64,000 nucleotides of DNA, from positions 4,154,001-4,218,000 of the forward strand of contig NZ_CP092074.1 of NCBI RefSeq assembly GCF_024138715.1. Reading direction: 5' to 3'. This document shows, piece after piece, positions 12,077 to 37,833 of the stretch; position 1 is the stretch's first letter, and the number at the start of each line of letters is the position of its first letter. The notes under the pieces are model-generated. The model saw only the letters and a list, made by a program, of their open reading frames with translations. It was not told the origin of the DNA and ran no database searches. The translations under genes were made by a program, and so were the position numbers. The stretch comes from Emticicia sp. 21SJ11W-3. GTDB lineage: Bacteria > Bacteroidota > Bacteroidia > Cytophagales > Spirosomataceae.

Positions 12077-12111
12077 GTCCGTTTTCGGACAAATTTAGTA
12101 CGCTGTCGGAC
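12077..12111. promoter_or_regulatory. Twin-dyad operator upstream of unit B
   Basis: Two 14-bp dyads lie side by side: GTCCG-TTTT-CGGAC (12077-12090) and GTACG-CTGT-CGGAC (12098-12111). They are separated by 7 bp, so their centres are 21 bp (about two helical turns) apart. The same two dyads, with the same spacing and the same G-to-A imperfection in the second left half, occur at 37799-37833. Paired dyads upstream of a -24 type box are typical of NtrC-family enhancer sites, and the divergent regulator at 37984 is the likely ligand. Confidence 0.8.
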
Positions 12112-12326
12112 AGGCCCTTTTCTTTGTTTTCACTACATTTTTTTGGGCATAAACTGCTGCAATTATACCCGAAAGGCTCACTTAAAAGATTTAAGATTTT
12201 ATCAGAACACAAATAACATTATACAATTTTACGCAACTGCCTCACTATAAATAAATTTCAGGAAGATTTTCCAACCATTTCGGGGGCAGAAGAGTCTGTA
12301 TCATTGAAACGTTAATCTATTTATTT

Positions 12327-12836
12327 ATGAAAAAATTAATGCTACTATTGGGATTTCTGACCGTGGTGATGGCTTGCAAAAATGAAGCAGAAGATATGGC
12401 GGGTGGTGATTTATCAGGGAAGCCCGGCGCTGGCATGCTCAACCCGAATGCGCCTAAGTCTGGCAAAGACCCTGTTAATCCACGCTCAGAGACCTTTTAT
12501 TATTTTGCAGGATACCAGGTAAGCAAAACTGCCGGTTCTGATAAAATGGGTATGGATATTGGTAAAGCCCCAGACAACCCTACTCAATTGTATGTGAGCG
12601 GCTATAGTTTTGTAAATATGTATGGTGCCGGTTATACCTGCGATGAAAAAACAGGTGCCCTGAAAATTAAAGAACTGATAGCTACCGAGATGGCAGGTAG
12701 CGAAGAAGCCAATAAAGCTGAGGCTGAGTATTTCAAAAATCTGCAGGAAGCCACCAGAATAGTTTTTGAAACCCAACAAGTACAAATACTGGTGGGTAAT
12801 CCGGTAAAAGAAGTTATGTTTTTTAAGAAAAGATAA
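12327..12836 (+). CDS. Small predicted lipoprotein of unknown function
   Basis: The 169-residue product begins with a lipoprotein signal: Lys-Lys, a hydrophobic run, then the lipobox VMAC with the acylated cysteine at residue 17, followed by an acidic/Gly-rich linker. The remainder (about 45-169) is soluble with no motif I recognise. A YFFAGYQVS segment and an amphipathic Glu/Ala-rich helix near 118-140 are visible. It is the only plus-strand gene inside the permease region. It sits between the two permease units, downstream of the unit B operator and converging on P6, with a shared terminator. It may be an accessory factor of the transporter or an unrelated gene; the sequence does not decide. 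Confidence 0.8.
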   Translation: MKKLMLLLGFLTVVMACKNEAEDMAGGDLSGKPGAGMLNPNAPKSGKDPVNPRSETFYYFAGYQVSKTAGSDKMGMDIGKAPDNPTQLYVSGYSFVNMYGAGYTCDEKTGALKIKELIATEMAGSEEANKAEAEYFKNLQEATRIVFETQQVQILVGNPVKEVMFFKKR

Positions 12837-12851
12837 GGTCTGAAACAAATT

Positions 12852-12886
12852 AAAAAAGGCAGTGGGGTTTTCCATTGCCTTTTTTT
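12852..12886. terminator. Bidirectional terminator between lipoprotein gene and P6
   Basis: The hairpin AAAAAGGCA-G-TGG, loop GGTTTT, CCA-T-TGCCTTTTT has an A-run on the left and a T-run on the right, so it can stop both the plus-strand lipoprotein gene and the minus-strand unit A after P6. Confidence 0.85.
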
Positions 12887-12904
12887 GTCCGTTTTTTCCG
12901 GCTG

Positions 12905-15298
12905 TTATTCTGCTTTCAGCGAATTCACCGGGTTCATCAATGCCGCTCTGATGGCCTGTCCGCCTACAGTTAAAAGTGCCACAGCAATGGTTACCATTGC
13001 CGTTATTATAAATATATATGCGTTAATAGAAATGCGATACGGGTAGTTTTCGAGCCATTTTTGTGCGGCCAAAAAAGCGATTGGGAACGCAAAAATAAAT
13101 GATAGACCCACCAGTTTCAGGAAGTCAGAAGACAATAATTGCACTATACTACTTACCGAAGCACCTAACACTTTACGGATACCAATTTCTTTGGTACGTT
13201 TCTCTGCCGACAAAGTGGCCAGGCCAAACAAACCTATGCAGGAAATACAAATGGTAAGCGCAGTGCCAAAAAGCATAATTTGTTTCCATTTTGCCTCTGA
13301 TTCATAGTTTTTCAGATTTTCGGCTTCCTGAAACTTAAAATCATAAGAGTTAATCGGGAATAGCTTTTTGAAAGTCTTCTCTATATGTTTCAGGCTGGCT
13401 ACTTCAGACCCCGGCTTAATTTTGATAAATACTCTACCGTATACATTACCGGGTTTCATGGTAAATAATTGTGGCCCAATCTCCTGGCTCAGTGAATTAA
13501 AATGGTGGTTTTTTACAACTCCTATTACCGTGTACTTATCGTTACTGTTATAGAAATTAACTTCCTGCCCTAGGGGATTCTTCCAGCCTGCTTTTTTCAC
13601 AAAGGCTTCATTCACAATGACCGATTTTGTTGAATCAGATGGAAAATCAGGAGAGAAATTTCGCCCCTTCAGAACGGGTATCTTCATTAAAGGCAAGAAA
13701 ACATGATTAACTGTTTCATAGGCAAAATCAATCTGTGTATCGCCGTTCACTTTCGCTATTGTCCCCCACGAACCTGCATTTTTGGGTGCTACCTCAATAA
13801 TATTCGGGTCACTCTTCAATTCGTTGATAAACAAAGCCGACTGGCTGTGAGTTAAAAGCCACTTGTCAACCAATATCAGATTTTTATCGTCATACCCCAA
13901 CTCTTTGGTTGTCAGGTAATTGAATTGCGAATAGATGGTCATGGTAGCAATAATCAGAAACGAAGCCAAACTAAACTGCACCACCACCAATGTTTTTTGC
14001 AGATAGTTTTTTCCTGTCAGGTTAAATCGGCTGTATAAGGTTCTCACCGGGTCATATCCTGACAGCACAAGAGCCGGATAAAACCCAGCCAGCAGACTTG
14101 TTATGGCAAATAGTATGACATAGGCTGATATCAGCCTGATGTCAAATAAATAGGAGAAAGCCAAAGACTTATTTGCTAATTGATTGAAGGTAGGCAACAC
14201 CATCTGCACAATAAATACTGCCAGCACAAAGGCTATCAGGCAAAGTATGGAAGACTCGCCCAAAAACTGAAAAATCAGTTGTTTTCTGTCGCCGCCAACT
14301 ACTTTTCTTATGCCAATTTCTTTGGCGCGTTTCAACGAACGGGCTACTGTAAGATTAATGAAGTTGATGCAGGCTATTAATAATATAAAAATAGCAATGC
14401 CTGTAAGGATATAAGAAAAAGTAGGGTTGCTGGCATCAGACAAACCATTCTGGGCAGCAAATGTAGTACTCAGGTGCATGTCGGCCAATGGTTGCAGGGC
14501 ATATCTGGCATTTTCTTTTACATCAAACTCTTTGGCCATTTTCTGAATACTCTCTTTTGCATCTGCCTCATAAACCCGTTTCATTTTAGCCTCTGCTGAT
14601 ACCACATTGGCATGCGGCTTAAGTACCACAAATGTATTAAGAAAGAAATTGAACCAGTTATCGCTATTCTGGTATTCTTCATTTTCTACAACTAAGGGCA
14701 GCAGAAAATCAAACTTAATAGAAGAGTTTTGCGGCGCTTTTTTTGCTACCCCCGTAATCTGGTAAGGCACCAGTTTGTTATCCTCTACAAAATCAATGGT
14801 TTTACCCATCACATCTTTAGTTTTGAACAGTCTTTCTGCCATTTGCTCTGAAATAACTAAAGTGTTAGGTTGTATCAATGCTGTTTTGGGATTTCCACTT
14901 AGCAAAGGGAAAGAAAACACAGAAAAGAAGTTTGCGTCGGCCGCTAATAATTCATACCCTTTTATTTCGTTACCCTGACGGATATTCCGAAAATCACTGC
15001 GTAAACGCATAAACGACTGAATCTCAGGCACACCTGCTTTAAACTTAGGGCCTTGAAAATACCCCGTTACACCGTCTGACTGTTTCACGTTGCCATCCGG
15101 ATTAATCCATTCGGTAGTAACCCGGTAGATACTTGCTTGGTTGGCATGGAAACGGTCATAGCTTACTTCATCTTTGGTATAAAGCATAATAAGCATAGCC
15201 GCTGCAAGACCGATGCTGAGCCCCGCAATGTTAATAAAACTGTAAACCTTATTGCGAAAAAGGTTACGGATGGCGATTTTAAAGTAGTTTTTTAACAT
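12905..15298 (-). CDS. P6: MacB/FtsX-type ABC transporter permease, last gene of unit A
   Basis: The protein has 797 residues (MLKNYFKIAIRNLFRNK). The coupling motifs are RAKEIGIRKVVGGDRKQL after LIACINFINLTVARS, and TKEIGIRKVLGASVSSI after SCIGLFGL. The tail NPVNSLKAE departs slightly from the family. The first periplasmic domain has the usual PLL.GNPKTAL, TLVISE and FDFLLPL landmarks of these permeases. It is the promoter-distal end of unit A and is followed, 19 bp after its stop, by a strong terminator, which separates it from unit B. Confidence 0.93.
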   Translation of the reverse strand: MLKNYFKIAIRNLFRNKVYSFINIAGLSIGLAAAMLIMLYTKDEVSYDRFHANQASIYRVTTEWINPDGNVKQSDGVTGYFQGPKFKAGVPEIQSFMRLRSDFRNIRQGNEIKGYELLAADANFFSVFSFPLLSGNPKTALIQPNTLVISEQMAERLFKTKDVMGKTIDFVEDNKLVPYQITGVAKKAPQNSSIKFDFLLPLVVENEEYQNSDNWFNFFLNTFVVLKPHANVVSAEAKMKRVYEADAKESIQKMAKEFDVKENARYALQPLADMHLSTTFAAQNGLSDASNPTFSYILTGIAIFILLIACINFINLTVARSLKRAKEIGIRKVVGGDRKQLIFQFLGESSILCLIAFVLAVFIVQMVLPTFNQLANKSLAFSYLFDIRLISAYVILFAITSLLAGFYPALVLSGYDPVRTLYSRFNLTGKNYLQKTLVVVQFSLASFLIIATMTIYSQFNYLTTKELGYDDKNLILVDKWLLTHSQSALFINELKSDPNIIEVAPKNAGSWGTIAKVNGDTQIDFAYETVNHVFLPLMKIPVLKGRNFSPDFPSDSTKSVIVNEAFVKKAGWKNPLGQEVNFYNSNDKYTVIGVVKNHHFNSLSQEIGPQLFTMKPGNVYGRVFIKIKPGSEVASLKHIEKTFKKLFPINSYDFKFQEAENLKNYESEAKWKQIMLFGTALTICISCIGLFGLATLSAEKRTKEIGIRKVLGASVSSIVQLLSSDFLKLVGLSFIFAFPIAFLAAQKWLENYPYRISINAYIFIITAMVTIAVALLTVGGQAIRAALMNPVNSLKAE

Positions 15299-15422
15299 AA
15301 GCCCCTAACCCCTAAAGGGGAATTTAAAATTGAATAATGAATTTCTGCCCCCCAACCCCTAAAGGGGAGCTATTAAAAACCTCAGTATTTTTGTAGTCCC
15401 CCTTTAGGGGTTAAGGGCATGT
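15299..15422. repeat. Intergenic palindromic spacer S5 (compound, three arms)
   Basis: The P6/P7 junction is longer than most and has three arms instead of two. Two are in the left-arm orientation, CCCC-TAAA-GGGG (15309-15320 and 15356-15367), and one is in the right-arm orientation, CCCC-TTTA-GGGG (about 15402-15413). This looks like partial duplication of the element or insertion of one copy into another. Confidence 0.85.
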
Positions 15423-17789
15423 TTATTCTGATTTCAAACTCTTCACCGGATTAATCAATGCTGCCTTTACGGCCTGAAAACTGACAGTCATGATGGCAAT
15501 CAGAATCGCTACGGCTCCGGTGGCTGCAAATATCCACCACTCAATAGATACTCGATAGGCGAAATCCTGTAGCCATTGCGCCATAAAGTAATAAGCAACA
15601 GGTACGGCCACCACAAGAGCAATTAGCACCAGTTTCAGAAAATCGAGCGAAAGCAAAGTGGTGATACCAAATACCGAAGCGCCCAGTACTTTTCTGATAC
15701 CAATCTCTTTGGTGCGCTGCCTGATAGAAAAAGTAGCCAGACCAAACAAACCCAGGCAAGAAATGAAAACTGCCAGCGTGGCAAAGGTCTTGGTAAGGTT
15801 ACTGATTAGTTCTTCGCGCTCATAAAAACTCGCCACGTCTTCATTAAAAAAAGAGTATTCAAAAACGTTGTCTGGGTACAATTTCTCCCATAATCCGGCA
15901 ACTTTTTTCAGGGTTGACTGGTCAAAGGATTTTAGCTGAATAGCTACCTTACGATAATGCGCTCTTGACGAAAAGATAACCGTGGGCTCAATGCCCGAAT
16001 AGAGGTCGGTATTATTAAAATCGGCTACTACGCCTACTATGGTTCCGGTTTTGCTGTGGTCGCCTACCAATAGTTTTCTGTTCAGAATTTCTTCGGCTGA
16101 TTTCAATCCTAAATCTTTTACCATTTTCTGATTCACCAGTAACTCTCTCAGGGTGTCAGAAGCAACAGGCTTACGGCCGCTGATTAGCTTGATGCCATAG
16201 GTATCAATATAGGCTTCATCAGCTATTTTAGACCTTGCCACAAATTTCTCCCAGTCTCTGTTTTCAAATCTGATGCTTCCGCCACTACCGGTCTGCGAAG
16301 TTGGTGCAGTGCGAAAGAAAGACACAGAGCTTACATTTGCCTGTTGAAGCAATTGGTTTTTAAGTGTTCTAAGTTTGCCGGTTTCAGCATCCGGAATATT
16401 TACTTGCAGAATCAGGTCTTTTCTTAAGCCCAGATCTTTATTTTCCAGGTAATCAAGCTGCAACACAACCAGCATAGACACGGCTATCAATATGCAGGCA
16501 ATGCTGAATTGTATTACTACCAACCCTTTGCGAAGTGTAAATTTCTTAGGCAACTCAGTGACATTTTTCAATGCCTTTAAAGGCTGAAAATTGGCAATGA
16601 TAAGTGACGGATAAAACCCAGCCATAAAAACAACGGCCGCCAGCAGAAGAGCCATGAAACCAATTAGGGTGAGGTCAGAGAACAGGCTAATGTGAACAGG
16701 GGTAGCTAACCATTGAGCAAGTAAAGGAGCAGCCACGTAGGCGATAACTACTGCCAGTATGCCGGAAAACAAAGCTAACAATGTGGTTTCACTAATAAAC
16801 TGCCAGAAAATTTGGGCTTGTGAACTGCCCAAAGTTTTTCTTACCCCTACTTCTTTGTGTCGTTTAAAAGATTGCGCCGTTGAAAGATTAACGAAATTGA
16901 TACAGGCAATAACCACCATTAGCAATCCGATACCTATCAGCAAATGGATGGTTGATTTCCTGATTTTTCCGTCATAGTCGATGTTAAAGTGAATATCAGA
17001 TAAATCTTGTAGATGATACCTGAATATTTCTGAGTCTGCGCCATAATAATTTTTAGAAAAAGCAGGCATCTGACTTTCAAGCTTATTCTTTAATTCCTTC
17101 GAGCGCAGCATCACAAAGGTTTCCCTGCTGCTGTCAATCCAACCCCAGTCTTGGTAGCCATATTCAGGCACAAGGATTTTCAATGTAGGCAGTGAAACAA
17201 AAATATCGGTTTTCAAATCCGTATTGGCCGGGTAATCTTTCAGTACCCCCGCCACCACAACTTCCTGTTTACTTTCAAGTTTAATAACCTTTCCCAAAGG
17301 GTTATCATTTCCGAAAAACTTCCGGGCATAGCGCTCCGTAATTACCACTTGATTAGGATTCTCAAGTACCCCGGGCTTACCTGCCTTCCACTCATAATCA
17401 AATATCTTAAAGTAGTCGGCATTGGTAAAAGCAGCCGATTCCCGCTCTGCGTATTTCCTGACTTCGCCATTTGTTGCAACCGAAATTGTCAATGGTTGAT
17501 GCGCCAGATATGTAGTTTTTTCAATGGCCGAATACTCCTTCGCCCAGGTCTGATGCAATTGATAGGCACTACCCTTTTCTTTTTCTATGCTGCCATCTTC
17601 CAGATGCAGGTCAACCACTGCTCTATAAATCCGGTCTGCATTTTTATGATAGGTATCAACACTTAAATGGTATTTCACCAATTGAAAAACCAGTATCCCA
17701 CCGGCCATGCCCAAAGCCAGACCGAACACATTCAGAAAGGTGAAGAGTCTGTTTCTAACCAGTACTCTTAATATAAAATTTAGTTTCAT
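15423..17789 (-). CDS. P7: MacB/FtsX-type ABC transporter permease
   Basis: The protein has 788 residues from the ATG at 17789 (MKLNFILRVLVRNRLF). An in-frame ATG at 17855, abutting the P8 stop codon, would add 22 charged residues; I prefer 17789 because it aligns with paralogues. The N-terminus lacks the usual NYLKIA motif, but TM1 and the first domain match P5 (GILVFQLVKYHLSVDTYHKN; FTNADYFKIFDYE). The coupling motifs are RHKEVGVRKTLGSSQAQI and TKEIGIRKVLGASVFGI; the tail is NPVKSLKSE. The P8/P7 junction has no palindromic spacer, so these two are likely translated closely together. Confidence 0.9.
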   Translation of the reverse strand: MKLNFILRVLVRNRLFTFLNVFGLALGMAGGILVFQLVKYHLSVDTYHKNADRIYRAVVDLHLEDGSIEKEKGSAYQLHQTWAKEYSAIEKTTYLAHQPLTISVATNGEVRKYAERESAAFTNADYFKIFDYEWKAGKPGVLENPNQVVITERYARKFFGNDNPLGKVIKLESKQEVVVAGVLKDYPANTDLKTDIFVSLPTLKILVPEYGYQDWGWIDSSRETFVMLRSKELKNKLESQMPAFSKNYYGADSEIFRYHLQDLSDIHFNIDYDGKIRKSTIHLLIGIGLLMVVIACINFVNLSTAQSFKRHKEVGVRKTLGSSQAQIFWQFISETTLLALFSGILAVVIAYVAAPLLAQWLATPVHISLFSDLTLIGFMALLLAAVVFMAGFYPSLIIANFQPLKALKNVTELPKKFTLRKGLVVIQFSIACILIAVSMLVVLQLDYLENKDLGLRKDLILQVNIPDAETGKLRTLKNQLLQQANVSSVSFFRTAPTSQTGSGGSIRFENRDWEKFVARSKIADEAYIDTYGIKLISGRKPVASDTLRELLVNQKMVKDLGLKSAEEILNRKLLVGDHSKTGTIVGVVADFNNTDLYSGIEPTVIFSSRAHYRKVAIQLKSFDQSTLKKVAGLWEKLYPDNVFEYSFFNEDVASFYEREELISNLTKTFATLAVFISCLGLFGLATFSIRQRTKEIGIRKVLGASVFGITTLLSLDFLKLVLIALVVAVPVAYYFMAQWLQDFAYRVSIEWWIFAATGAVAILIAIMTVSFQAVKAALINPVKSLKSE

Positions 17790-17855
17790 TTTATTAGTTT
17801 TAGAAAAAGCAAACGTGCTTTTTATGTTTTCCTTTGTCTTTTTCTCATGCTCCAT

Positions 17856-20255
17856 TTACTCCGTTTTCAACGATTTCACCGGATCCACCAACGCTGCTTT
17901 GATAGCCTGATAACTTACGGTAAGAAGCGCAATCAGAGTAGCTAAGAGACCAGTAACCACAAATACCCACCATTGGATAGTTACCTGATAAGCAAAGTTT
18001 TTCAACCAGCTATTCATAAAATACCAGGCAATTGGGCTGGCTATTACTACAGCAACTACTATCAGTTTCATAAAATCTTTCGATATCAATGTGGTCAGGC
18101 CGGCTACCGAAGCCCCTAAAACCTTACGGATACCAATCTCTTTGGTTCGTTGCTCTGCTGTAAAAGCTGCCAGACCAAAAAGCCCCAGGCAGGCAATAAG
18201 TATAGCCAGACCAGAAAAAACAAATACCACTCTGGCCGTTTGCGTTTCTGTAGCATATAATGTGTTCAGGTACTGGTCCAGAAAGAGATATTCAAATGCT
18301 GAGTTGGGTATGCTTTTTCTGAAAGTAGCTTCCAGTTGTTTCATGGTCTGCTCAACATTACCAGTATTTATTTTAACGAGTACGTATGGCCTTGACTCGG
18401 TGTCATTATTATGAAAAACATAAGACCCGATAGGCTGATGGAAAGAATCATAGTGAAAGTCTCTTACCACACCCACAATTTCGGCCTTGCGGTTCCAGAA
18501 CAAATCTTCTGAAAACTTACCGATGGCATCCTGTGGGGTTTTATAACCCAACAGTTTGACAGTTGTTTCATTCACAACAATCTGCACGGTTGTGTCTTTT
18601 TCTGCTTTAGTAAGTGGCAGCGTTTTGCCTGCAACGAATTTGAGGTTCAGCACTTTTGCAAAATCGCCATTTACGCGGTTGGTGCGCACTGCAAAAGATT
18701 CATTAGGATTATTTACTTTACTCATGCTGCGGCCGCTACCGCCAGTACCCGGATAAGCCTGCGCACGGGCAATCTCCAGCACATTGCTTAAATCTTTATA
18801 GTTATTAATCAACGCATCTATCTGTTCTTTATTCTCAGCTGCTGAGGTCATCACGGCTACCACCTGCTCCGGGTTATACCCCAGCTTTTTGTTTTGAATA
18901 AACCTAAGTTGCTGGAAAAAAATAAAGGTGCAGATTATCAGGATTATGGAGGCTGAAAACTGAATAACCACAAGCGACTGGCGGAATAATCCGGCTCCGG
19001 TTTTACGGCTAACAGGTGCCTGCAAAAGACTTTTAGGAGCAAATGAAGACAGGTAAAAAGCCGGATATGACCCTGACACAAACGTAACGAACGTAAAAAT
19101 TGCCAATAAACCCAGCCCCACTTCAGGTGTAAAAACATCTCTTACTGATAACTCTTTACCGGCGATGTCATTAAAAAATGGCATCATTAACACCAGAATA
19201 ACAAGCCCTAATATAAGGGCCAGCAAGACTGTCAAGAGGGTTTCAGTATAAAACCTGCCTATCAGCTGGGCGTTGGTGGCGCCTATTGTTTTATTAATAC
19301 CCACTTCTTTAAATCTTTTCTGCGAACGCGCCGTAGACAGATTCATGTAGTTAATACAGGCAATTACCAATACCACCAAAGCAAGAATGGACAGTATCTT
19401 TACCTGGGCGGCATCTCCTGCCCTTTTTGTATTGGAATTGGTGATGTCTGCAGAGTTAAGGTGGATATCAGTTAGGGGTTGCAGCCATAAACTAAACCAG
19501 CGGTCTGATTTGTCCGGAATGTTCTTTTCAAGTAAAGCCGTCATTTGGGCTTCTACCTTTTGCTGGCTGGCACCTGGTTTCAATAACACGTAAGTTTCAA
19601 AACTTGAATTGCTCCACACAAGGTTTTTTGAGGCCCACTCAACACTATTAAAAGAACCCATCAATTCGGCATCCAACGTAAAATTATGCGGCAGGTCTTC
19701 GTAAACCCCTGTTACTTCCATTGTGTATTTGGCGCCAATTTTTACAATTTTGCCCATAGGGTTGGCATCACCAAAATACTTTTTGGCAGTAGCCTGGCTT
19801 AAAACAATTTTATTGGGTTCTTGCAAAGCCGTTTTGGGGTTACCCTGTAGAAGCTTAATATCAAAAATTTCAAAGATGGTGCCATCTACCCAATACAATT
19901 TTTTCTCGGTAAATTTCTTATCTCCAAGGTTTACAAAGGCGGTTTCCCCGTAATCATTCAGCAAAATACGCGCTTGCTGAACTACCTCTGGCACTTCATT
20001 TTTCAGGCTGGGGCCAACAGCATTGGGGGCATTGGCCCACTTAGCACTTTTACCATCAAAAGTAGCCGTTACCCCGATGCGGTAAATATTTGCGGCATTG
20101 GTATGATACTTATCAAAAGACAGTTCGTCTTTTACATATAGTATCAACAAAAGAGATACAGTAAGCCCAAGGGCTAAACCCAACAAGTTAAGTAAAGTAA
20201 AGAGTCTGCTTTTTACCAGACTTCTCCAGGCAATTTTCAAGTAGTTACGTAGCAT
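17856..20255 (-). CDS. P8: MacB/FtsX-type ABC transporter permease
   Basis: The protein has 799 residues from the ATG at 20255 (MLRNYLKIAWRSLVKSR); a 10-residue upstream extension in the spacer is rejected. The first coupling motif is altered to FKEVGINKTIGATNAQL, where Asn replaces the Arg found in every other copy. The second is standard (TKEIGIRKVLGASVAGL). The tail reads DPVKSLKTE instead of NPVK. The N-terminal membrane segment is especially Leu-rich (LLNLLGLALGLTVSLLLILY). Whether the R-to-N change alters contact with the ATPase cannot be judged here. Confidence 0.93.
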   Translation of the reverse strand: MLRNYLKIAWRSLVKSRLFTLLNLLGLALGLTVSLLLILYVKDELSFDKYHTNAANIYRIGVTATFDGKSAKWANAPNAVGPSLKNEVPEVVQQARILLNDYGETAFVNLGDKKFTEKKLYWVDGTIFEIFDIKLLQGNPKTALQEPNKIVLSQATAKKYFGDANPMGKIVKIGAKYTMEVTGVYEDLPHNFTLDAELMGSFNSVEWASKNLVWSNSSFETYVLLKPGASQQKVEAQMTALLEKNIPDKSDRWFSLWLQPLTDIHLNSADITNSNTKRAGDAAQVKILSILALVVLVIACINYMNLSTARSQKRFKEVGINKTIGATNAQLIGRFYTETLLTVLLALILGLVILVLMMPFFNDIAGKELSVRDVFTPEVGLGLLAIFTFVTFVSGSYPAFYLSSFAPKSLLQAPVSRKTGAGLFRQSLVVIQFSASIILIICTFIFFQQLRFIQNKKLGYNPEQVVAVMTSAAENKEQIDALINNYKDLSNVLEIARAQAYPGTGGSGRSMSKVNNPNESFAVRTNRVNGDFAKVLNLKFVAGKTLPLTKAEKDTTVQIVVNETTVKLLGYKTPQDAIGKFSEDLFWNRKAEIVGVVRDFHYDSFHQPIGSYVFHNNDTESRPYVLVKINTGNVEQTMKQLEATFRKSIPNSAFEYLFLDQYLNTLYATETQTARVVFVFSGLAILIACLGLFGLAAFTAEQRTKEIGIRKVLGASVAGLTTLISKDFMKLIVVAVVIASPIAWYFMNSWLKNFAYQVTIQWWVFVVTGLLATLIALLTVSYQAIKAALVDPVKSLKTE

Positions 20256-20404
20256 AGTCCCTCCGATACGTCGGACCGCCCCCATCAGGGGGATTTTTAA
20301 ATTATTAATATTTTTCTCTTCCTGTTAGCAGTATTTTAGCACTCAATGGCTACTCTTCTCACCCTCATTTAAAGTTCGGGGCGCAAGTGGCATGTACGCC
20401 ACCA
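20256..20404. repeat. Intergenic spacer S6 (type A left arm, degraded right side)
   Basis: The P8/P9 junction begins with TCCGA-TACG-TCGGA (about 20262-20275), then CCCCC-ATCA-GGGGG (about 20280-20293), where the stem is kept but the loop differs from TAAA. The usual right arm is missing; instead there is unrelated AT-rich sequence and a small hairpin, GTGGC-N6-GCCAC (about 20388-20403). Confidence 0.7.
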
Positions 20405-22828: not shown

Positions 22829-22913
22829 AATGCGCCCCTAACCCCTAAAGGGGAATTAAAGTTAAAAGATATATATGTTATCACCCTCAACTCCCCTTTA
22901 GGGGTGGGGGGCT
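22829..22913. repeat. Intergenic palindromic spacer S7 (type B)
   Basis: The P9/P10 junction has the left arm GCCCCTAACCCC-TAAA-GGGG (22834-22853) and the right arm CCCC-TTTA-GGGG-TGGGGGGC (22893-22912). The whole 85 bp can fold into a single stem of roughly 18-20 bp with an AT-rich loop. Confidence 0.88.
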
Positions 22914-25328: not shown

Positions 25329-25412
25329 AGTTTTGAAATTTTGATGATTAAAGCTGAAAGTTAAAACCGCATTTAATCATTCTCATTTCGTTTAAGTTAT
25401 TTTAACATTCTG

Positions 25413-27779: not shown

Positions 27780-27875
27780 ATACCTCTCCGATGCGTCGGA
27801 CCGTCCCCTAAAGGGGAACTTGTTTAATGGTTATGGAAAATACTCGTCCCGGCTCCCCTTTAGGGGCGGGGGGCG
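27780..27875. repeat. Intergenic palindromic spacer S8 (type A)
   Basis: The P11/P12 junction has TCCGA-TGCG-TCGGA (27787-27800), CCCC-TAAA-GGGG (27805-27816) and a right arm CCCC-TTTA-GGGG (27855-27866). Its left 45 bp match S1 almost base for base, although the flanking genes are strongly diverged. Confidence 0.88.
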
Positions 27876-30263: not shown

Positions 30264-30346
30264 AGCCCCTAGCCCCTAAAGGGGGACTTATTTAATGGTT
30301 TTAGAAAAAGTTTCTCCTCAACTCCCCTTTAGGGGCTGGGGTTGTT
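30264..30346. repeat. Intergenic palindromic spacer S9 (type B)
   Basis: The P12/P13 junction has the left arm GCCCCTAGCCCC-TAAA-GGGG (30265-30284) starting two bases from the P12 start codon, and the right arm CCCC-TTTA-GGGG-CTGGGG (about 30324-30341). In the transcript the 3' arm would pair right up to the P12 start codon. Confidence 0.88.
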
Positions 30347-32791
30347 TTACTCAGATTTCAAACTCTTTACAGGGTTCATTAATGCGGCTCTGATGGAATG
30401 AAAACTAATTGTAAACAGGGCAATTAAGACCAATAATATACCTGCCAGTGCAAAAATCCACCAATATAACTCGGTTCGGTGGGCAAAATCCTTTAACCAG
30501 TTCTGCATGGCAAAATAGGCCACCGGTGTTGCTATTACGAATGCAACGGCTACCATTTTCAGGAAGTCGATTGAGATAAGGCCAACGATACCGCTGATAC
30601 TGGCACCTAAAACTTTACGGATACCTATTTCTTTGGTACGTTGCTCTAGCACTATAAGCGCCACTGCAAACAGCCCCATACAAGAAAGCAAAACGGCTAT
30701 ACCTGCTGCCAGGCTGAATATCTGAGACAGACGCTCTTCTTTCTTATACCATCGGTCAACGTTTTCATTAATAAAAGAGCCATTGAATTCTTCGGTAGGC
30801 GCCAGCTTTTTCCATGTATTTTTTACTAATTCCATCGACTCACTCAGGTTCTTTGTATGCGTGCGAATCAAAATATAGTTTACACTGCCTTTAGGTGCCA
30901 TTTCAAGTGTGATTGAACGGCCTTCTCTGCGAAGCGAATACAGATAGAAGTCAGGAATTACACCTATAATTCTCTGCCGTCCAATTGCTGAATCTGGCAT
31001 CAGAAATTTATCAACCACAAGGGTTTCACCCATTTGTTTCACCAGACTTTCGGTTACAATTAAAGCCGTAGAGTCGGTACCAAATGCCGGGGAGAAATCG
31101 CGCCCCTGTATGGTTTTTATACCAAGCGTTTTCAGAAAATCATAATCCACATAAAGCCAGTCGCTTATAATAGGACGCACATTTTTAGTGTCGTTTTCAT
31201 TAGGATAATAATCAAACCCGGCGGTGCTTCTGGAAGAGGCACCATCAAGCCCATTACCAAAATTAATGCCCGAACCACTAACTGATACGATAGAAGGATA
31301 CCTGGCAAGCTCATTTTTTATTTGCTTTACAGCCGTTTTATGGTCTAAAGCGCTACCAATAGGCACGCTTATAACCTGCTCTTTGTCATAACCAAGCGGT
31401 TTGTTTTTCAGGTATTGCAGCTGTTCAAATATCACAATTGTACAACTGATAAGCAGACATGAAATTGAAAACTGAACAATAATCAACGAATTACGTAATA
31501 CACCGGGTTTCTTTTTTGTAAGCCTGCCTTTTAAAACTTCTACTATATTAAAACGAGACGACACAAACGCAGGGTACCCGCCTGCAATGAGGGTTACTAA
31601 CAGAAAGGCGGGCAACACAATAACCAGATTGGAAGAATTCAGAAAGTTTTCAATAGATAGGCTTGATTGAAACAAACTATTAAACTGTGGCAGAAAACCA
31701 TAAGCTGCCGCCAGACCTAAAAATATAGCCAATGTGCAAATCAAAAACGATTCTCCCCAGCCTTGTATAAAAAGTTGCCCTTTGTTAGCTCCCAGCGACT
31801 TCCGCACACCTACTTCTTTGGCCTGTGTTAATGATTTGGCTATGGTAAGGTTAATAAAGTTGATAGAGGCTATGAGCACTATCAGCAAGGCAATTATTAA
31901 CAAAGTATAGATATAGCTTTTACTTACGCCACTGCCCCAACCCGTAATGGTATCGAAATGCACATCTTTAAGCGGCATCATTAACAAGCTCAGGTATTGC
32001 CCTTGCCCGTTCTTGATTTTGCCCGATTTCCGGGCGTCTTCTAAGGCGGGTTTCATGTATTTACTTACCAGTGCCTCAAACCGCTTTTCAGTAGCCGCCT
32101 GAGTAGCGTTTTCTGCAAGCTTTACATATACCTGATGATTCTGGCTTGTCCATTTGTCTTTTATAGCTTCATAGCTGCCATGATTCTCAGACCTGATGAG
32201 AACGTCATACTCAATGCTTGAGTTTTTAGGGGCATCGTCAATAACGCCGGTTACCACAAAAGGTGTTTTACCCGTGGCCAGGTCAATAAGTAGTTGCTTA
32301 CCTAAGGGGTCTACTTTACCAAATATATTCTCAGCTGTGGTTTTGCTGATAACCATACCGTTTTTATCTGCCAGAGCAGAATTAACATTGCCTTTCAGCA
32401 GAGGAAAAGAAAAAACCTTCAGGAAGTCGGCATCAACGGTTCTGACATTCTTTTCAAATTTCTTACCGTTATAAATAATTGGCCCGCCTCCCCAGTTTAT
32501 GCGGGTAGCCGCTTCTACCTCCGGATACTCGGCTTTTAAAGCAGGTGTAAGCGGATAGGCCATAGCAGCGCTGTATTCTGGTTTACCCAGCTTATCTACA
32601 CTATTAAAATAGAGATAGTAAACCCGGTTGGCATCTTTATGAAAAGTATCATAAGAAAACTCGTAAGCCACAGTCAGGTAAAGCAGAATACTACTGCCAA
32701 AAGCCACAGATAGGCCAATAATATTAATGGCAGTATGTGTCTTGTTTTTCAACAACTTACGAAAAGCTATTTTTAAGTAATTTCGTATCAT
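30347..32791 (-). CDS. P13: MacB/FtsX-type ABC transporter permease
   Basis: At 814 residues this is the longest complete copy (MIRNYLKIAFRKLLKNK). The motifs are LIASINFINLTIAKS (Ser replaces Cys), QAKEVGVRKSLGANKGQL, LLSCMGLFAVALIVLEQ and TKEIGIRKVLGASISGI; the tail is NPVKSLKSE. With P14 it shares GLSVAFGSSILL-type TM1, the PLTPAL segment, GWGES/FWGEA after the coupling helix, a long Lys-rich insert before the MPLKDVHF/APLIGLHF segment, and the MGLFA ending of TM6. These two adjacent genes look like the most recent tandem duplicates in the array. Confidence 0.93.
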   Translation of the reverse strand: MIRNYLKIAFRKLLKNKTHTAINIIGLSVAFGSSILLYLTVAYEFSYDTFHKDANRVYYLYFNSVDKLGKPEYSAAMAYPLTPALKAEYPEVEAATRINWGGGPIIYNGKKFEKNVRTVDADFLKVFSFPLLKGNVNSALADKNGMVISKTTAENIFGKVDPLGKQLLIDLATGKTPFVVTGVIDDAPKNSSIEYDVLIRSENHGSYEAIKDKWTSQNHQVYVKLAENATQAATEKRFEALVSKYMKPALEDARKSGKIKNGQGQYLSLLMMPLKDVHFDTITGWGSGVSKSYIYTLLIIALLIVLIASINFINLTIAKSLTQAKEVGVRKSLGANKGQLFIQGWGESFLICTLAIFLGLAAAYGFLPQFNSLFQSSLSIENFLNSSNLVIVLPAFLLVTLIAGGYPAFVSSRFNIVEVLKGRLTKKKPGVLRNSLIIVQFSISCLLISCTIVIFEQLQYLKNKPLGYDKEQVISVPIGSALDHKTAVKQIKNELARYPSIVSVSGSGINFGNGLDGASSRSTAGFDYYPNENDTKNVRPIISDWLYVDYDFLKTLGIKTIQGRDFSPAFGTDSTALIVTESLVKQMGETLVVDKFLMPDSAIGRQRIIGVIPDFYLYSLRREGRSITLEMAPKGSVNYILIRTHTKNLSESMELVKNTWKKLAPTEEFNGSFINENVDRWYKKEERLSQIFSLAAGIAVLLSCMGLFAVALIVLEQRTKEIGIRKVLGASISGIVGLISIDFLKMVAVAFVIATPVAYFAMQNWLKDFAHRTELYWWIFALAGILLVLIALFTISFHSIRAALMNPVKSLKSE

Positions 32792-32916
32792 AGCCCCTAG
32801 CCCCTAAAGGGGGACTTTTTTAAGTTAGATAATATTTTTACAAACTCCCCTTTTGGTTACTTTGTACTCGCTTTTTAAAATTAGGCGTAAGCAACTCCCC
32901 TTTAGGGGCGGGGACG
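32792..32916. repeat. Intergenic palindromic spacer S10 (type B with extra right arm)
   Basis: The P13/P14 junction has the left arm GCCCCTAGCCCC-TAAA-GGGG (32793-32812), a broken right arm CTCCCCTTTTGG (about 32845-32856), about 38 bp of unrelated sequence, and then an intact right arm CCCC-TTTA-GGGG (about 32896-32907). It looks like an insertion or re-duplication within an older spacer. Confidence 0.82.
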
Positions 32917-35340
32917 TTACTCACTTTTAAGTGATTTTACCGGATTCATCAAAGCGGCCCTGATTGACTGGTAGCTTACCGTAAACAAGGCAATCATAAT
33001 GGCAGTGGCGCCTGCTACTGCAAAAATCCACCAGCTGATGTTCGTTTGGTAGGCGAAATCCTCAATCCATTTATTCATCAGGTAGTAAGCCAATGGCGTG
33101 GCCAGCAGGATGGCTATTAAAACAAGGCTCAGAAACTCTTTTGAAAGCAGCATAACCAGATTTGGGATACTTGCGCCCAATACTTTACGGATGCCTATTT
33201 CTTTGGTACGCTGCGCCATGATCATCAGCGCAATGGCAAACAACCCCATGCAGGAAAGAATAATGGTAAGCACTGCGGCGCTCATCACAATCTGCGACAT
33301 CCGCTCTTCTTTTCTATATTGATTATTGGTGTTTTCGTCAAGAAACGACGGAAGGAATTCAGATTTAGGCGCAATTTCTTTATAGGCATTGCCTATTACA
33401 TCTACAATTGATTTGGGAGCATCAGGAGCCAGTTTTACAAAAACATAGTTGATGCCAAAATCGCCGGGCATCATAAAAGTAATGGCTTCTATTCTATTTT
33501 TTAATGATTCAAAATGGTAGTCTTTTACAACGCCCACTATGGTTTTGCCGATACTATCGCCAATAGCTACTTTCTTGCCAATCGGGTCTTTGTAGCCCAT
33601 TTGCTTGGCCATGGTTTCATTGATGATACATCCGCGGTCTTTATCGGTTGTAAACTGCCGAGAAAAGTCGCGGCCTTCTACCAGCTTTAACCCAAGTGTT
33701 TTTATGTAGTCGTAATCAATAGTCAGGCCATTGGTTCTATAGCTTTTACCTTCCATCTCAAAAGTAAACACTGATTTTGAACTTGACCCGTCCTTTCCTC
33801 TGCCGATGTTGATATCAGCGCCTGATATTCCCAGAATCCTTGAGTCATTGGCCAGTTTATTGCGCACGTAGTCAAGCACCTTGCTGCCCTGTACCTCATT
33901 ACCTACCGGAAAACTAATCACCTGTGTTTCATCAAAACCCAAAGGTTTGTTACGCAGGAAATCAATCTGTTTCCAGATTATTAACGTACAGCTAATCAAT
34001 AAAATAGCAATGCTGAATTGCGCCACAATCAACGCGCTTCTGATTCCGCCTGAACGCGAACTTACTTTTACTTTGCCCTTTAGCACCTCTATGGTATTAA
34101 ACCGGGCAACGGCCAATGCCGGGTAACCACCTGCTATAAGGGTTATAAACAGAAAACTAAGCAATAGCAATATACCGACTGTGGGATTAAGCAGGTTATG
34201 AAACGTCAGCTCGCTTCTGAACATGGCATTGTACTGTGGCATAAGCATGGTGGCCAGTACGCATCCTATACCAAAGGCCATAACGCATATAATAAATGCC
34301 TCGCCCCAGAACTGACCCACAATCTGGGTTTTCAATGCTCCCAGGGCTTTTCTCATGCCCACTTCTTTGGCGCGGGTCATTGAGCGGGCAATAGACAGAT
34401 TAATAAAATTAATACAGGCTATTAACAAAATGAGCCCGCTTATAACCAGCAGAATATACGGGTAAGTAATATCAATAGCCCGGTTGCCTTCAGCCTGTTT
34501 GTTAAAATGTAATCCGATTAGTGGTGCTATTCTAACACTTATAATTTCTCCTCTGTCATCAGGTTTCGCACCCTCTTTTTTTAGCTGGTCTATGCTTCCT
34601 TTAAAATATTTTCCGGCAAAAGACTTCATTTGCTTTTCTAAACTCTCAGCTTCTACCTTATCGGCCAACTGCACGTAGGCATCATGGTAATTTGAATTCC
34701 AACTGTCTTTTGTATCTTTATATTCTGGGTTGTTTTCAAAACGCATCAGTATTTCATTCTCTAACGATGAGTTTTTAGGAGCCTTTTCTATAACACCCGT
34801 TACCACAAACGCTTCAACTTGCCCGCCAAAATTCATATTAATTGTTTTCCCTATCGGGTCTGCCTTGCCGAATATATTCGCTGCCACTTCTTCATTTAAA
34901 ACCACACTCCGAAGGTCGTTCAAGGCCGTAGCCGGACTCCCCTTCAGCATTTTAAATGAAAACATCTTCAGGAAATCGGCGTCTACATACCTTATGCTCT
35001 CGTCAATCGTCTTTTCTCCTTGCATAATCTGCACACCACCCCCTACAATGCGTGTGGCATATTTTATTTCAGAGCCAAAATCAGAAATTAAAGCCGGAGT
35101 AAGCGGCGTAGGCATGTTGCCCTGGTAATGTATTTTATCTGGTTGATTAATTTTAAAGTAGACCTTAAAGATGCGGTCTTTATTGGCCTGGAAGTCGTCG
35201 AAGGTAAATTCAAACCAGGCAGTAAGAAACAATAAAATGGCGCTCCCGAAAGCAATAGAGAGCCCAACAACGTTGATTGAAGTATAAGATTTATTCTTCC
35301 AAAGGTTTCGGAATGCGATTTTGAAATAATTTTTTAACAT
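32917..35340 (-). CDS. P14: MacB/FtsX-type ABC transporter permease, first permease of unit A
   Basis: The protein has 807 residues (MLKNYFKIAFRNLWKNK). The motifs are LIACINFINLSIARS, RAKEVGMRKALGALKTQI, ILSCMGLFAIALMIMAQ and TKEIGIRKVLGASIPNL; the tail is NPVKSLKSE. It follows the ATPase gene after 151 bp that contain a 9-bp stem-loop but no palindromic spacer. Position next to the ATPase and adaptor suggests it is the original partner in a MacAB-like set, with the other permeases added downstream; this is inference. Confidence 0.94.
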   Translation of the reverse strand: MLKNYFKIAFRNLWKNKSYTSINVVGLSIAFGSAILLFLTAWFEFTFDDFQANKDRIFKVYFKINQPDKIHYQGNMPTPLTPALISDFGSEIKYATRIVGGGVQIMQGEKTIDESIRYVDADFLKMFSFKMLKGSPATALNDLRSVVLNEEVAANIFGKADPIGKTINMNFGGQVEAFVVTGVIEKAPKNSSLENEILMRFENNPEYKDTKDSWNSNYHDAYVQLADKVEAESLEKQMKSFAGKYFKGSIDQLKKEGAKPDDRGEIISVRIAPLIGLHFNKQAEGNRAIDITYPYILLVISGLILLIACINFINLSIARSMTRAKEVGMRKALGALKTQIVGQFWGEAFIICVMAFGIGCVLATMLMPQYNAMFRSELTFHNLLNPTVGILLLLSFLFITLIAGGYPALAVARFNTIEVLKGKVKVSSRSGGIRSALIVAQFSIAILLISCTLIIWKQIDFLRNKPLGFDETQVISFPVGNEVQGSKVLDYVRNKLANDSRILGISGADINIGRGKDGSSSKSVFTFEMEGKSYRTNGLTIDYDYIKTLGLKLVEGRDFSRQFTTDKDRGCIINETMAKQMGYKDPIGKKVAIGDSIGKTIVGVVKDYHFESLKNRIEAITFMMPGDFGINYVFVKLAPDAPKSIVDVIGNAYKEIAPKSEFLPSFLDENTNNQYRKEERMSQIVMSAAVLTIILSCMGLFAIALMIMAQRTKEIGIRKVLGASIPNLVMLLSKEFLSLVLIAILLATPLAYYLMNKWIEDFAYQTNISWWIFAVAGATAIMIALFTVSYQSIRAALMNPVKSLKSE

Positions 35341-35491: not shown

Positions 35492-36169
35492 TTAAACGTG
35501 GAAGTTTTCAGTTACGACCTTGCCGTCAAACAGGTTAATGATTCGGTGAGAAAAGCCTGCATCATAAGGTGAGTGGGTAACCATTATAATGGTTGTGCCT
35601 TCGTTGTTCAATTCCTGAAGCAACTTCATTACCTCTTCTCCATTGGTTGAGTCAAGGTTACCAGTAGGCTCATCGGCCAGAATCAACTTTGGTTTGGCCA
35701 CTACGGCACGGGCAATAGCCACACGTTGTTGCTGGCCACCCGATAGCTGCTGCGGAAAGTGATTACGGCGGTGCATGATGTTCATGCGCTCTAATACTTC
35801 TTCAACTTTTTTCTTGCGTTCGGTAACCGGAGTTTTCAGATACAAAAGCGGAAGCTCTACGTTTTCAAAAACGGTTAGCTCATCAATCAGGTTAAAGCTC
35901 TGAAAAACAAACCCGATATTTCCTTTGCGGTGAGAAGCCCGCTCTCTCTCACTAAGTTTAGCTACTTCCACTCCATAAAAGTCATAACTTCCTTCTGATG
36001 GATTATCCAGCAAACCCATGATATTTAGCAGAGTTGATTTTCCGCAACCAGAAGGCCCCATAATAGCTACAAACTCGCCATCTTTGATGCTCATATCAAT
36101 GCCATTGAGGGCTGTGGTTTCCACCTCTTCGGTAGTGAACACTTTCTGAAGATTAGATATTTTAATCAT
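35492..36169 (-). CDS. LolD/MacB-type ABC transporter ATP-binding protein
   Basis: The protein has 225 residues from the ATG at 36169 ([11 protein letters not shown]), chosen because LolD/MacB ATPases start there; a 19-residue upstream extension is rejected. Walker A is GPSGCGKST (about 37-45), the Q-loop segment is FVFQSFNLI, the signature is [14 protein letters not shown], Walker B is [13 protein letters not shown], and the H-loop is [10 protein letters not shown]. The usual Asp after the switch His is Ser here. It hydrolyses ATP on the cytoplasmic side and drives MacB-type permeases. It is the only ATPase in the window for 14 permeases, which all keep the E(V/I)G(I/V)RK-type coupling motif, so sharing is likely. 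Confidence 0.95.
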
Positions 36170-36319: not shown

Positions 36320-36377
36320 GCATTGAGTCTTTAAATGTTGTACCAAGAAAGAATGTTTTTTATCGATACCCACCCCT

Positions 36378-37628
36378 TTACTTCAATTGAAGCACTTCGT
36401 TGTCGCCAAAGTTTTCGTATGACGAAGTAATTACCTTTTCGCCCACCTCAAGCCCTTCCAGTACTTCAAAGAATTCAGGATTTTTACGACCCAAAGTAAT
36501 TTTGCGTTTTACAGCTTTGGTTCCAGACTTATCTACCACATATACCCAGTTTCCGCCGGTATCTGAGAAGAAACCACCAACAGGCAGCAATACCGCTTTG
36601 GTAGCTTTGCCTAACTCGAGACGGATGGGTGATGACTGCCCTCTCTTAATACCTTCTGGTACTCCCTTCGAGAAAATCATGTCTACCTGAAAACGTCCGT
36701 TGCGAACTTCGGGATATATTTTGGTAATTTCAAGCGGATACTCTTTTCCGTTAAACTCAAAAGAGCCGCCAAGACCTGAAAAAATTCTTGAAATATAGTG
36801 TTCATCAATATCTACACGCATTTTAAATCCGTTCAGGTCATCTATCTGCCCGATGTTCTGGCCCTGGCTGATGTTTGAACCCACCTCAACATCAATAGAT
36901 GACAACAAACCTGAAACGGGGGCTTTTACTACCAGATTCTCTAGTGTTTCGCGCCATAGCTGAACGTTCTTCTGGGTGCGCTCCAAGGTGCCCTCCAACT
37001 GTTTAATCTGCATGGCGGAGTTTTCTTCCTGATACTTTTGCGATTCCACATCAATTTCGCGTTGGCTTAACAGTTTTTCATAATCGCGTTTGGCTTTCAG
37101 ATAATCTGCCTCTGGTATCACTTTGTCTGCATATAGTTTTTTGTTTCTGTCGTAGAGGTCTTTTGCCTGGTCGGTCAGGAAATCCAGGTCAGACATATTT
37201 TTGCGAATCGTAAATTTCTCCACCTTCAACCGCTGGCGCGTATTCTGCAGGTCATTCACCAATCGGCTGGCTTCTGTTTCCGACTGCAGGAAATTCAGTT
37301 TAAGGTTCTGGTTCTCCAGTTTCAGAATAACCTGGCCTTGTTTTACCATATTACCACCGTCTACTACTTTTTCTTTTACGTACCCACCCACAATGGCATC
37401 CAGACGGATAATTCTTAAAGGTAAAACCACACCTGTTACCACAATAAATTCATCAAAATTACCATTAGACACCTGCGAAATCGTCATTTTATCTTTTTCG
37501 GCATTCAGAGTCGAGCGGCGGTCTGCAAAAAGCAGGCTGTAGGCTGCAAATGAAGCAAATAATACTCCGCCGAGGGTTAACAGGATTCGTTGTTTATTCC
37601 AGAATTTCTTTTTAATCTGCTTGTCCAT
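36378..37628 (-). CDS. MacA/HlyD-type periplasmic adaptor (membrane fusion) protein
   Basis: The protein has 416 residues from the ATG at 37628 (MDKQIKKKFWNKQRI); the open frame extends 13 codons further but this start matches the family. It shows a positively charged N-terminus, one membrane anchor (about 15-33), a split lipoyl/biotinyl-like domain (about 73-105 and 235-270; GGYVKEKVVDGGNMVKQGQ and VKAPVSGLLSSIDVEVGSN), a long coiled-coil hairpin (about 110-232), then beta-barrel and membrane-proximal domains to the C-terminus. Such proteins bridge an inner-membrane permease and an outer-membrane TolC-type duct in the periplasm. No TolC homologue is in the window. First gene of unit A, 99 bp downstream of the -24-like box. 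Confidence 0.93.
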   Translation of the reverse strand: MDKQIKKKFWNKQRILLTLGGVLFASFAAYSLLFADRRSTLNAEKDKMTISQVSNGNFDEFIVVTGVVLPLRIIRLDAIVGGYVKEKVVDGGNMVKQGQVILKLENQNLKLNFLQSETEASRLVNDLQNTRQRLKVEKFTIRKNMSDLDFLTDQAKDLYDRNKKLYADKVIPEADYLKAKRDYEKLLSQREIDVESQKYQEENSAMQIKQLEGTLERTQKNVQLWRETLENLVVKAPVSGLLSSIDVEVGSNISQGQNIGQIDDLNGFKMRVDIDEHYISRIFSGLGGSFEFNGKEYPLEITKIYPEVRNGRFQVDMIFSKGVPEGIKRGQSSPIRLELGKATKAVLLPVGGFFSDTGGNWVYVVDKSGTKAVKRKITLGRKNPEFFEVLEGLEVGEKVITSSYENFGDNEVLQLK

Positions 37629-37727
37629 TGTATTCTTTAAAATTGCCGTACAATTTGCTTCTGACAAATTGCCGCAGTGACTGTTAGTTTAATTGATTAA
37701 TTGCGATTTAAATCTGTAATTCCTTAA

Positions 37728-37743
37728 TTCACAATGTGTGCCA
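37728..37743 (-). promoter_or_regulatory. Candidate sigma-54-like promoter of unit A
   Basis: On the minus strand TGGCACA-CATT-GTGAA begins at 37743. TGGCAC is a perfect -24 half; the -12 half (GTGAA) keeps only part of TTGCA. It starts 56 bp from the lower edge of the twin-dyad operator, identical to the unit B arrangement. This points to activation from a distance by an enhancer-binding protein. Confidence 0.62.
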
Positions 37744-37798
37744 AATATTTCAAATAACTGATTATCAACATTTTATGAAATATTTACTCTTTAAAATT

Positions 37799-37833
37799 GT
37801 CCGTTTTCGGACAATACTTGTACGCACACGGAC
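37799..37833. promoter_or_regulatory. Twin-dyad operator upstream of unit A and the response regulator gene
   Basis: GTCCG-TTTT-CGGAC (37799-37812) and GTACG-CACA-CGGAC (37820-37833) have centres 21 bp apart. The first 16 bases from GTCCG are identical to the unit B copy. Lying between divergent genes, it could also mediate autoregulation of the response regulator, although no matching box is visible on the plus strand. Confidence 0.82.

Follow-up and report, generated by a model that had tools for sequence, protein, structure and literature searches.

Which regulator, if any, joins two operons of duplicated permease genes that carry the same paired inverted repeat at the same distance from a promoter-like box? 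The question is raised by a 64,000-nucleotide stretch of the genome of Emticicia sp. 21SJ11W-3 (NZ_CP092074.1, positions 4,154,001 to 4,218,000; hereinafter referred to as the window, whose own numbering is used unless a genome position is given). The comparative analysis described below indicates that the repeat very probably marks a sigma-54 two-component regulon that is widely conserved and serves a tripartite exporter with a large set of permeases; in it, the NtrC-type protein encoded at 37984 is the likely binder of the repeat, as judged from neighbourhood and co-occurrence.

Twin-dyad operators and promoter boxes in the window

37799..37833, no strand: twin-dyad operator (proposed upstream activating sequence) of the adaptor operon, between that operon and the regulator gene
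37728..37743, minus strand: sigma-54-type -24/-12 box TGGCACACATTGTGAA, 55 bp from the adaptor-operon operator
12077..12111, no strand: twin-dyad operator of the second permease operon, from the pattern scan
12006..12021, minus strand: sigma-54-type box TGGCATGGCTTTGGTT, 55 bp from the second-operon operator
37984..39336, plus strand: NtrC-type response regulator of 450 amino acids, the proposed binder, with receiver, AAA+ sigma-54 domain (GAFTDA loop) and Fis-type helix-turn-helix

Both 35-bp operators were found exactly where an earlier sequence-only reading of the window had placed them. No other place in the window matched at up to 3 mismatches over the 20 specified bases (four rows on both strands), as that reading had stated, and genome-wide there were 3 exact copies; the chance expectation in the window was 0.00, and the largest count across 100 shuffles was 0. 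The two operators had also been called identical, which was an overstatement: 28 of 35 bases are alike and the first dyad GTCCGTTTTCGGAC is the same in both, while the linker and the second N4 differ.

On the minus strand, TGGCAT (from 12021) and TGGCAC (from 37743) start 56 bp from the operator edge, with 55 bp between, at both sites, in agreement with the distance claimed before. The sigma-54 promoter consensus is TGGCACR-N4-TTGCW, and boxes were scored with simple weights of our own built on it. Both window boxes contain GG-N10-G, that is, the -24 element together with the G of the -12 element, a feature absent from the earlier reading. By sequence, a -24/-12-type box thus appears to lie downstream of the dyad at conserved spacing, the arrangement looked for in an NtrC-type sigma-54 regulon. 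The neighbouring gene had been taken to encode an NtrC-type regulator, which was confirmed by matches to PF00072, PF00158, and PF02954 above the Pfam cut-offs.

Probable regulon sites in the Emticicia genome

The genome was scanned as a single contig of 5,177,490 bases. Each of the 3 exact twin dyads lies 55 bp from a GG-N10-G box, and they head, respectively, the adaptor, an ATPase and nine permeases; five permeases; and an ABC ATPase followed by TolC. In the third copy (genome position 438772), the box points into the ABC ATPase gene and then into that of the TolC-type protein; this operon supplies the tripartite-exporter parts missing from the window.

A sequence-only profile built from 40 sites of the family was also run on this genome. 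Among the scored candidates (150 of 5769 from the first look), 53 rows had E <= 10. The best nine places were 438703, 4191729, 4166007, 4082877, 2762158, 986635, 2338925, 3301010, and 360174 (E 2.4e-19 to 0.016), and the remaining 44 rows were other-strand repeats or weaker. At six of the nine, exporter genes are preceded by a twin dyad and a box at a distance of 53-56 bp. At 4082877, a site found via other permease loci, the dyads have a separation of 22, one of them with 2 mismatches, the box lies at 56 bp, and a permease open reading frame (ORF) starts 38 bp beyond it. Site 2762158 likewise has a dyad separation of 22 and 2 mismatches in one of the dyads; its box lies at 54 bp, and the ORF of a 945-amino-acid permease begins about 470 bp further. 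At 2338925, both dyads are mismatch-free and 23 apart, and the box, at 53 bp, is followed by a permease pair.

In total, six phased promoters precede 18 of the 20 full-length duplicated permeases (9 + 5 + 1 + 1 + 2), the adaptor, two ATPases, and an outer-membrane channel, where the 20 are, by our own count, open frames of at least 788 amino acids with MacB_PCD matches, and operon membership was inferred from strand and order. The other two permeases stand behind a site at 3301060. The two-operon regulon first proposed was therefore too small, since six phased sites and two looser ones were found.

A related dyad pair, GTACGGAAACGGAA/GTACGATAACGGAC (L008:10171-10205; L190 and L195 at 4001), was observed ahead of a small secreted-looking protein and is kept in three genomes of the genus; in the Emticicia genome a TGGCACGAGTTTGTCA box lies 99 bp from it.

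Co-occurrence of operator and regulator in the family

Among 120 genomes of the family, the dyad pattern was found at <= 2 mismatches in 76, compared with 5 for the pattern read backwards, and the regulator was found at E <= 1e-115 in 96. The dyad was present in 73 of the 96 genomes with the regulator versus 3 of the 24 without it (Fisher p 1.4e-8, a value that overstates independence because the genomes are related). Four regulator-negative genomes (G099, G107, G115, and G117) were named by elimination, 20 of the 24 being listed. An adaptor match at E <= 1e-30 was obtained in 3/24 regulator-negative genomes (G001 at 45%, G067, and G089) and in all six regulator-positive genomes queried alongside. 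In two genomes of the same genus, regulator, adaptor, and dyad were all not found. When 30 regulator loci were inspected, 26 had the pattern at <= 5/20 mismatches within 1.5 kb. In genome G007, where 70 kb separate the regulator from the adaptor operon, the dyad accompanies the adaptor operon and is lacking upstream of the regulator. The site therefore belongs with the exporter genes, and linkage and co-occurrence make the regulator its likely partner.

Sixty places remote from the regulator were chosen among the matches listed, mostly in list order; places linked to the regulator were passed over, as were some close to a contig end and some that would have represented one region a second time. 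A box score >= 9.0 was found at 53-56 or 63-67 bp, phase windows chosen after the data had been inspected, in 57/60 (1941/12000 random positions), and a score >= 10.5 in 49/60 (control 260/12000). The next gene was a permease ORF at 43 places, an ATPase (mostly with TolC) at 8, and an adaptor at 1; at L183, L184, L186, and L219, one extra ORF came before the ATPase-TolC pair or permease. Exporter genes were thus reached from 56 of the 60 places, counting a classified ORF on the box strand that started within 1.2 kb (52 places) or after one extra ORF (4); L190, L195, L198, and L221 do not fit.

In three of the genus genomes (L183, L184, and L186), the ORF between the twin-dyad promoter and the ATPase-TolC genes has about 825-860 amino acids and a signal-like start.

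Conservation beyond the family

The regulator was searched for in one genome per species across 84,980 species, and the best 80 of 434 relatives were kept as named loci. They include Emticicia, Larkinella, Runella, Dyadobacter, Persicitalea, Fulvivirga, Nafulsella, Chitinophaga, and Ferruginibacter; the nearest is that of Emticicia agri (94%; NCBI class Cytophagia), and Chitinophaga belongs to the NCBI class Chitinophagia. A divergent adaptor gene was present in 74 of the 80 loci, and all 74 had a twin dyad with a phased box (GTNCG-N4-CGNAC, separation 20-22, <=3/16 core mismatches; box at 53-56 or 64-66 bp). This combination was found in none of the six adaptor-less loci, one of which (L091) ends at a contig end. 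The search covered 420 bp upstream, widened afterwards to 1500 bp for L140 and L142, and the site of L145 came from a separate search. Of 73 boxes measured, 62 lay at 53-56 bp and 11 at 64-66 bp, a difference of one helical turn. Among 1400 windows drawn at random from the longer named loci, none held a twin dyad at <= 2 mismatches, versus 74/80 upstream of the regulator. The arrangement is kept in other genera at 63-70% regulator identity. Moreover, the ATPase-TolC pair, remote in the Emticicia genome, is found in the 10-kb flank, on the same strand as the adaptor, in 10/80 named loci, and the ATPase alone is seen in 4 more.

Outside the family, degenerate sites were sought in regulator loci. 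The strict Emticicia-type pattern at <= 1 mismatch was found in 0/245 non-family genomes (247 were searched, and the 2 with matches both belonged to the family). An operator restricted to the family was considered and was ruled out by the degenerate dyad pairs at regulator loci of other genera; the strict pattern is therefore a poor guide outside the family.

In a FastTree phylogeny of 79 named regulators, that of the window, and a paralogue (RR2) as outgroup, 44 tips of Chitinophaga and near relatives grouped together (support 0.78), as did Emticicia (0.98), and nine Ferruginibacter tips fell away from Chitinophaga. An origin of the switch before the split of Cytophagia and Chitinophagia was considered and dropped owing to this placement: wide conservation holds, vertical descent from the class split is not supported, and transfer is possible.

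Chitinophaga loci (L101, L107, L112, L114, L121, and others) contain, by eye, an RGGAAC-N4-GTTTGC-like motif toward the regulator gene, at a distance of about 100 bp from the operator, possibly the regulator's own promoter. In addition, a contig titled Thalassovita sp. (L148) carries a Bacteroidota-type layout of regulator, adaptor, and ATPase. Thalassovita is an alphaproteobacterial name, and the bin label looks wrong.

Spacer between operator and box

37763..37775, plus strand: TATCAACATTTTA, resembling the IHF consensus WATCARNNNNTTR (0 mismatches), its start 36 bp from the edge of the adaptor-operon operator
12040..12052, plus strand: AATAAGCATATTA, resembling the same consensus (1 mismatch), its start 37 bp from the edge of the second-operon operator

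The DNA between operator and box had been regarded as unrelated, and this was not upheld: at both window sites an element resembling the IHF consensus, WATCARNNNNTTR, starts 36-37 bp from the operator edge, with 0 and 1 mismatch. In the site alignment, the spacer contains a conserved TGATTATCA...TTTA block. The block fits the consensus exactly at 16/54 remote family sites (0.34 in shuffles) and at 8/73 regulator loci (0.32 in shuffles), none of the latter being Chitinophaga; among three sites of the Emticicia genome the fit is exact in 1/3 and within 1 mismatch in 3/3. These counts left out L171, L190, L195, L198, L204, and L221 of the 60 remote places and L100, L106, and L145 of the regulator loci. 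Near matches at remote sites were placed 35-37 bp from the operator edge in 23 of 25 cases. Because the block is nearly palindromic, the opposite strand also matched exactly at 8 remote sites, 5 regulator loci, and 1 site of the Emticicia genome, and another dimeric binder is therefore possible. From its sequence, the spacer DNA is perhaps bent by an IHF/HU-type protein.

Regulator, kinase and sigma-54 genes

Across the 80 named loci, the regulator loop reads GAFTDA in 64 and GSFTDA in 15, and that of L125 was not read. In 14 of 18 loci inspected, a plus-strand ORF of 442-460 amino acids lies 3' of the regulator (L076, L078, L122, and L139 differ), and HATPase_c was found in 3/3 scanned ORFs at this place. 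In the Emticicia genome, other genes occupy the kinase place beside the regulator, and a 61% identical homologue is located at 4670662-4671984. This probable kinase gene (L163:10659-11984, genome 4670659-4671984) stands beside a transposase-like gene, away from the regulator, and a fragment matching kinase residues 374-442 is found on the opposite side of the transposase-like gene (L163:8630-8836, genome 4668630-4668836).

Two rpoN genes were identified in this genome (two Sigma54_DBD matches over the cut-off), at 5130010 and 142727. The latter adjoins a sigma-54 activator gene (141245-142675), with a kinase-like match nearby at 139281.

The genome further contains the paralogous regulator RR2 (978837), 44% identical to the 37984 regulator. 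An exporter-like set at L164 (genome 977540-986559) runs in one direction and comprises an adaptor-like, a TolC-like, and an ATPase-like protein, two half-size permeases, a GAFTDA regulator, and a kinase-like protein; it has a sigma-54-type box and no GTCCG twin dyad.

Proposed mechanism and alternatives

In the proposed regulon, a membrane histidine kinase would sense a signal, perhaps at the envelope, and phosphorylate the NtrC-type regulator at 37984, as its family membership suggests. The regulator would then bind both dyads, whose centres are about two helical turns apart, and the DNA between enhancer and promoter might be bent, perhaps by an IHF/HU-type protein at the consensus-like site. 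From what is known of the family, the AAA+ ring would open the complex of RNA polymerase and sigma-54 at the -24/-12 box 55 bp away. The outcome would be joint expression of one adaptor, two LolD-type ATPases, one TolC-type channel, and many duplicated permeases that lack an ATPase.

Several observations weigh against this regulon. The regulator loop reads GAFTDA where GAFTGA is usual; the available part of one study (PMC4641369) places GAFTDA among the loop variants expected to retain activity. The -12 element fits the TTGC of the consensus poorly (TTGG 32, TTGA 25, TTGC 5 of 75). The dyad is missing at <= 2 mismatches from 23/96 regulator-bearing family genomes, and four of the 30 regulator loci inspected (L052, L062, L067, and L072) have no pattern at <= 5 mismatches within 1.5 kb; its absence beside the regulator is likely due to drift. 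Conversely, 3/24 regulator-negative genomes have the dyad, namely G025 (66% complete), G035 (63%), and G089, which is 99% complete and keeps the adaptor. Two adaptor-less named loci (L100 and L106) have a twin dyad with no phased box on that side. The relatedness of the genomes, the phase windows chosen with the data in view, and the small share of profile candidates scored count on the same side.

In the Emticicia genome itself, site 3301060 has 3 mismatches and no phased box; a box stands at 217 bp with a permease pair behind it, and its membership of the regulon is possible. Site 360171, with a box 99 bp away (another at 26 bp), heads a secreted-looking non-exporter protein (Por_Secre_tail 24.1 bits vs a cut-off of 27) and recurs in two further genomes of the genus (L190 and L195); at place 986635, within the paralogous kinase/regulator/exporter set, there is a box without a twin dyad. 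A genome-wide hit list confined to permease operons had been proposed as the test of a dedicated regulon. The outcome largely agreed with it: six of the nine best places have a twin dyad and phased box at exporter genes, and 56/60 family places lead into such genes; 360171, 986635, and the four remaining family places did not conform.

The alternative that survives best, and is nevertheless unlikely, is that RR2 shares or cross-regulates the sites, which would make a two-regulator network of what is taken here as a dedicated regulon. The upstream region of its exporter set matches the profile through box and spacer (E 8e-7), and RR2 also has the GAFTDA loop. However, the 160 bp on either side of the match centre contained no single GTNCG-N4-CGNAC dyad at <= 2 mismatches, and the recognition sequence of RR2 therefore seems to be different.

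Less probable again is control of the same exporter by a different dimeric regulator that binds the dyads, the NtrC-type gene being a mere neighbour. The 23 regulator-bearing genomes without the dyad could be read in this way, and the genome does hold a paralogous regulator at 44% identity. Against this, the site lies between regulator and adaptor in 74/74 named loci that keep both together, and the elements have been lost jointly in the two same-genus genomes. In addition, sigma-54 promoters require an enhancer-binding protein, and the spacing is phased.

It is very improbable that the repeats were merely left behind by operon duplication or form a repetitive element devoid of regulatory function. 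The permeases are paralogous, so that upstream DNA may have been copied along with them, but the same site is borne by ATPase-TolC genes, which are not permeases, the spacers differ whereas site and spacing are kept, and the arrangement persists at 63-70% regulator identity in other genera. A role as RNA hairpins in a leader transcript is the most remote of all: each dyad could by reading form a 5-bp hairpin with a 4-base loop, but the dyads lie upstream of the box relative to the exporter genes and would therefore not be transcribed toward them from this promoter.

Exporter genes and permease family

The genes that the proposed sigma-54 two-component regulon would control in the window are the following.

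36378..37628, minus strand: HlyD/MacA-type periplasmic adaptor (domain scan; ATG at 37628 by reading the translation, ORF opens at 37667)
35492..36169, minus strand: LolD/MacB-type ABC ATPase (domain scan; ATG at 36169 by reading, ORF opens at 36226)
12905..35340, minus strand: nine duplicated MacB_PCD+FtsX permeases (12905, 15423, 17856, 20405, 22914, 25413, 27876, 30347, and 32917; domain scan of 32917)
2057..11970, minus strand: four complete duplicated permeases of the second operon (2057, 4577, 7052, and 9577; ATG of the first gene at 11970 by reading; domain scan of 9577)
1..1965, minus strand: fifth permease of the second operon, cut by the left window edge (genome 4153533-4155965)

The earlier count of 14 or more permeases is accounted for by nine in the first operon and five in the second, the last being cut by the window edge. 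A lipoprotein-like ORF of 169 amino acids was also noticed on the plus strand (12327-12836); it diverges from the second permease operon and occupies the gap that separates the second operator from the end of the first operon.

Fifteen permeases compared with one another showed 25-52% identity and were least alike in the periplasmic stretches, where mean column identity was 0.25 vs 0.38 and 0.51 for the FtsX parts, with boundaries of our own choosing. This divergence fits a repertoire that varies where substrates would be contacted and keeps the coupling part, and any paralogue family could look so. We tentatively suggest that one kinase-regulator pair may control a modular exporter by switching it on, and that as many as 20 interchangeable permeases, whose periplasmic domains diverge, would share the adaptor, two ATPases, and one outer-membrane channel as a repertoire for different substrates; this suggestion is somewhat less likely to be right than wrong.

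Comparison with known systems

No earlier description of this regulator or operator was found in the open-access literature, most subscription papers lying outside that scope, and no experimentally assigned role for the permease family was found in the same literature. The nearest precedent is a survey (PMC12316311; PLoS One 2025), the available part of which reports that predicted sigma-54 promoters are enriched at COG0577 permeases, in Bacteroidia among others, and terms the link of sigma-54 to FtsX-like permeases first evidence. That part names no regulator or operator for these permeases, which are given together here with a target list for a permease family expanded in this lineage. The survey's activator list, as described there, retained GAFTGA-motif sequences only and would therefore drop the present GAFTDA regulator; a sigma-54 survey that requires the GAFTGA loop can miss a regulator class. 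If the proposed regulon is true, loss of one regulator should silence the exporter set.

The exporter resembles MacAB-TolC, LolCDE, and the darobactin exporter DarBCD in its MacB_PCD + FtsX permeases, LolD-type ATPase, HlyD-type adaptor, and TolC-type channel, and differs from them in having one adaptor gene in a cluster beside 14 permeases. Unlike MacB, the permease is a fused pair without an ATPase: no ABC_tran domain was found in the scanned permeases and the ATPase is separate, so that the fused ATPase of MacB is lacking. The closest models for permeases and ATPases were those of the darobactin exporter and ADOP, all below cut-off. For the DarBCD NCBIfam equivalogs, the scores were 197 bits against a cut-off of 450 (DarC), 285 and 255 against 375 (DarD), and 138-162 against 700 (DarB). 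ADOP (TIGR03434) matched at full length, over about 800 positions, at 294-322 bits vs 622.3 in the three scanned permeases that have no prefix. The adaptor passed the cut-off of the general RND_mfp subfamily only.

The spacer resembles that of IHF-assisted sigma-54 promoters of the nifH/NifA type, in that some of the family sites have an IHF-consensus-like element in a fixed position between enhancer and promoter. The element differs in being nearly palindromic, with the exact match in 8/73 regulator loci and in no Chitinophaga.

The regulator scored below the cut-off of all NCBIfam models among the best 25 of 74, the top one being a PEP-CTERM regulator (389.9 vs 502.6 bits). In architecture, the system is most readily compared with NtrC/ZraR/AtoC-type regulons, with which it shares the receiver, sigma-54 AAA+ domain, and Fis-type helix-turn-helix of the regulator, a dyad enhancer about 100 bp upstream of the expected start with a -24/-12-type box, and a kinase-like ORF beside the regulator in most relatives inspected. 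It is set apart from these regulons by the GAFTDA loop, by a -12 element that is mostly TTGG or TTGA, and by a permease family as its targets.

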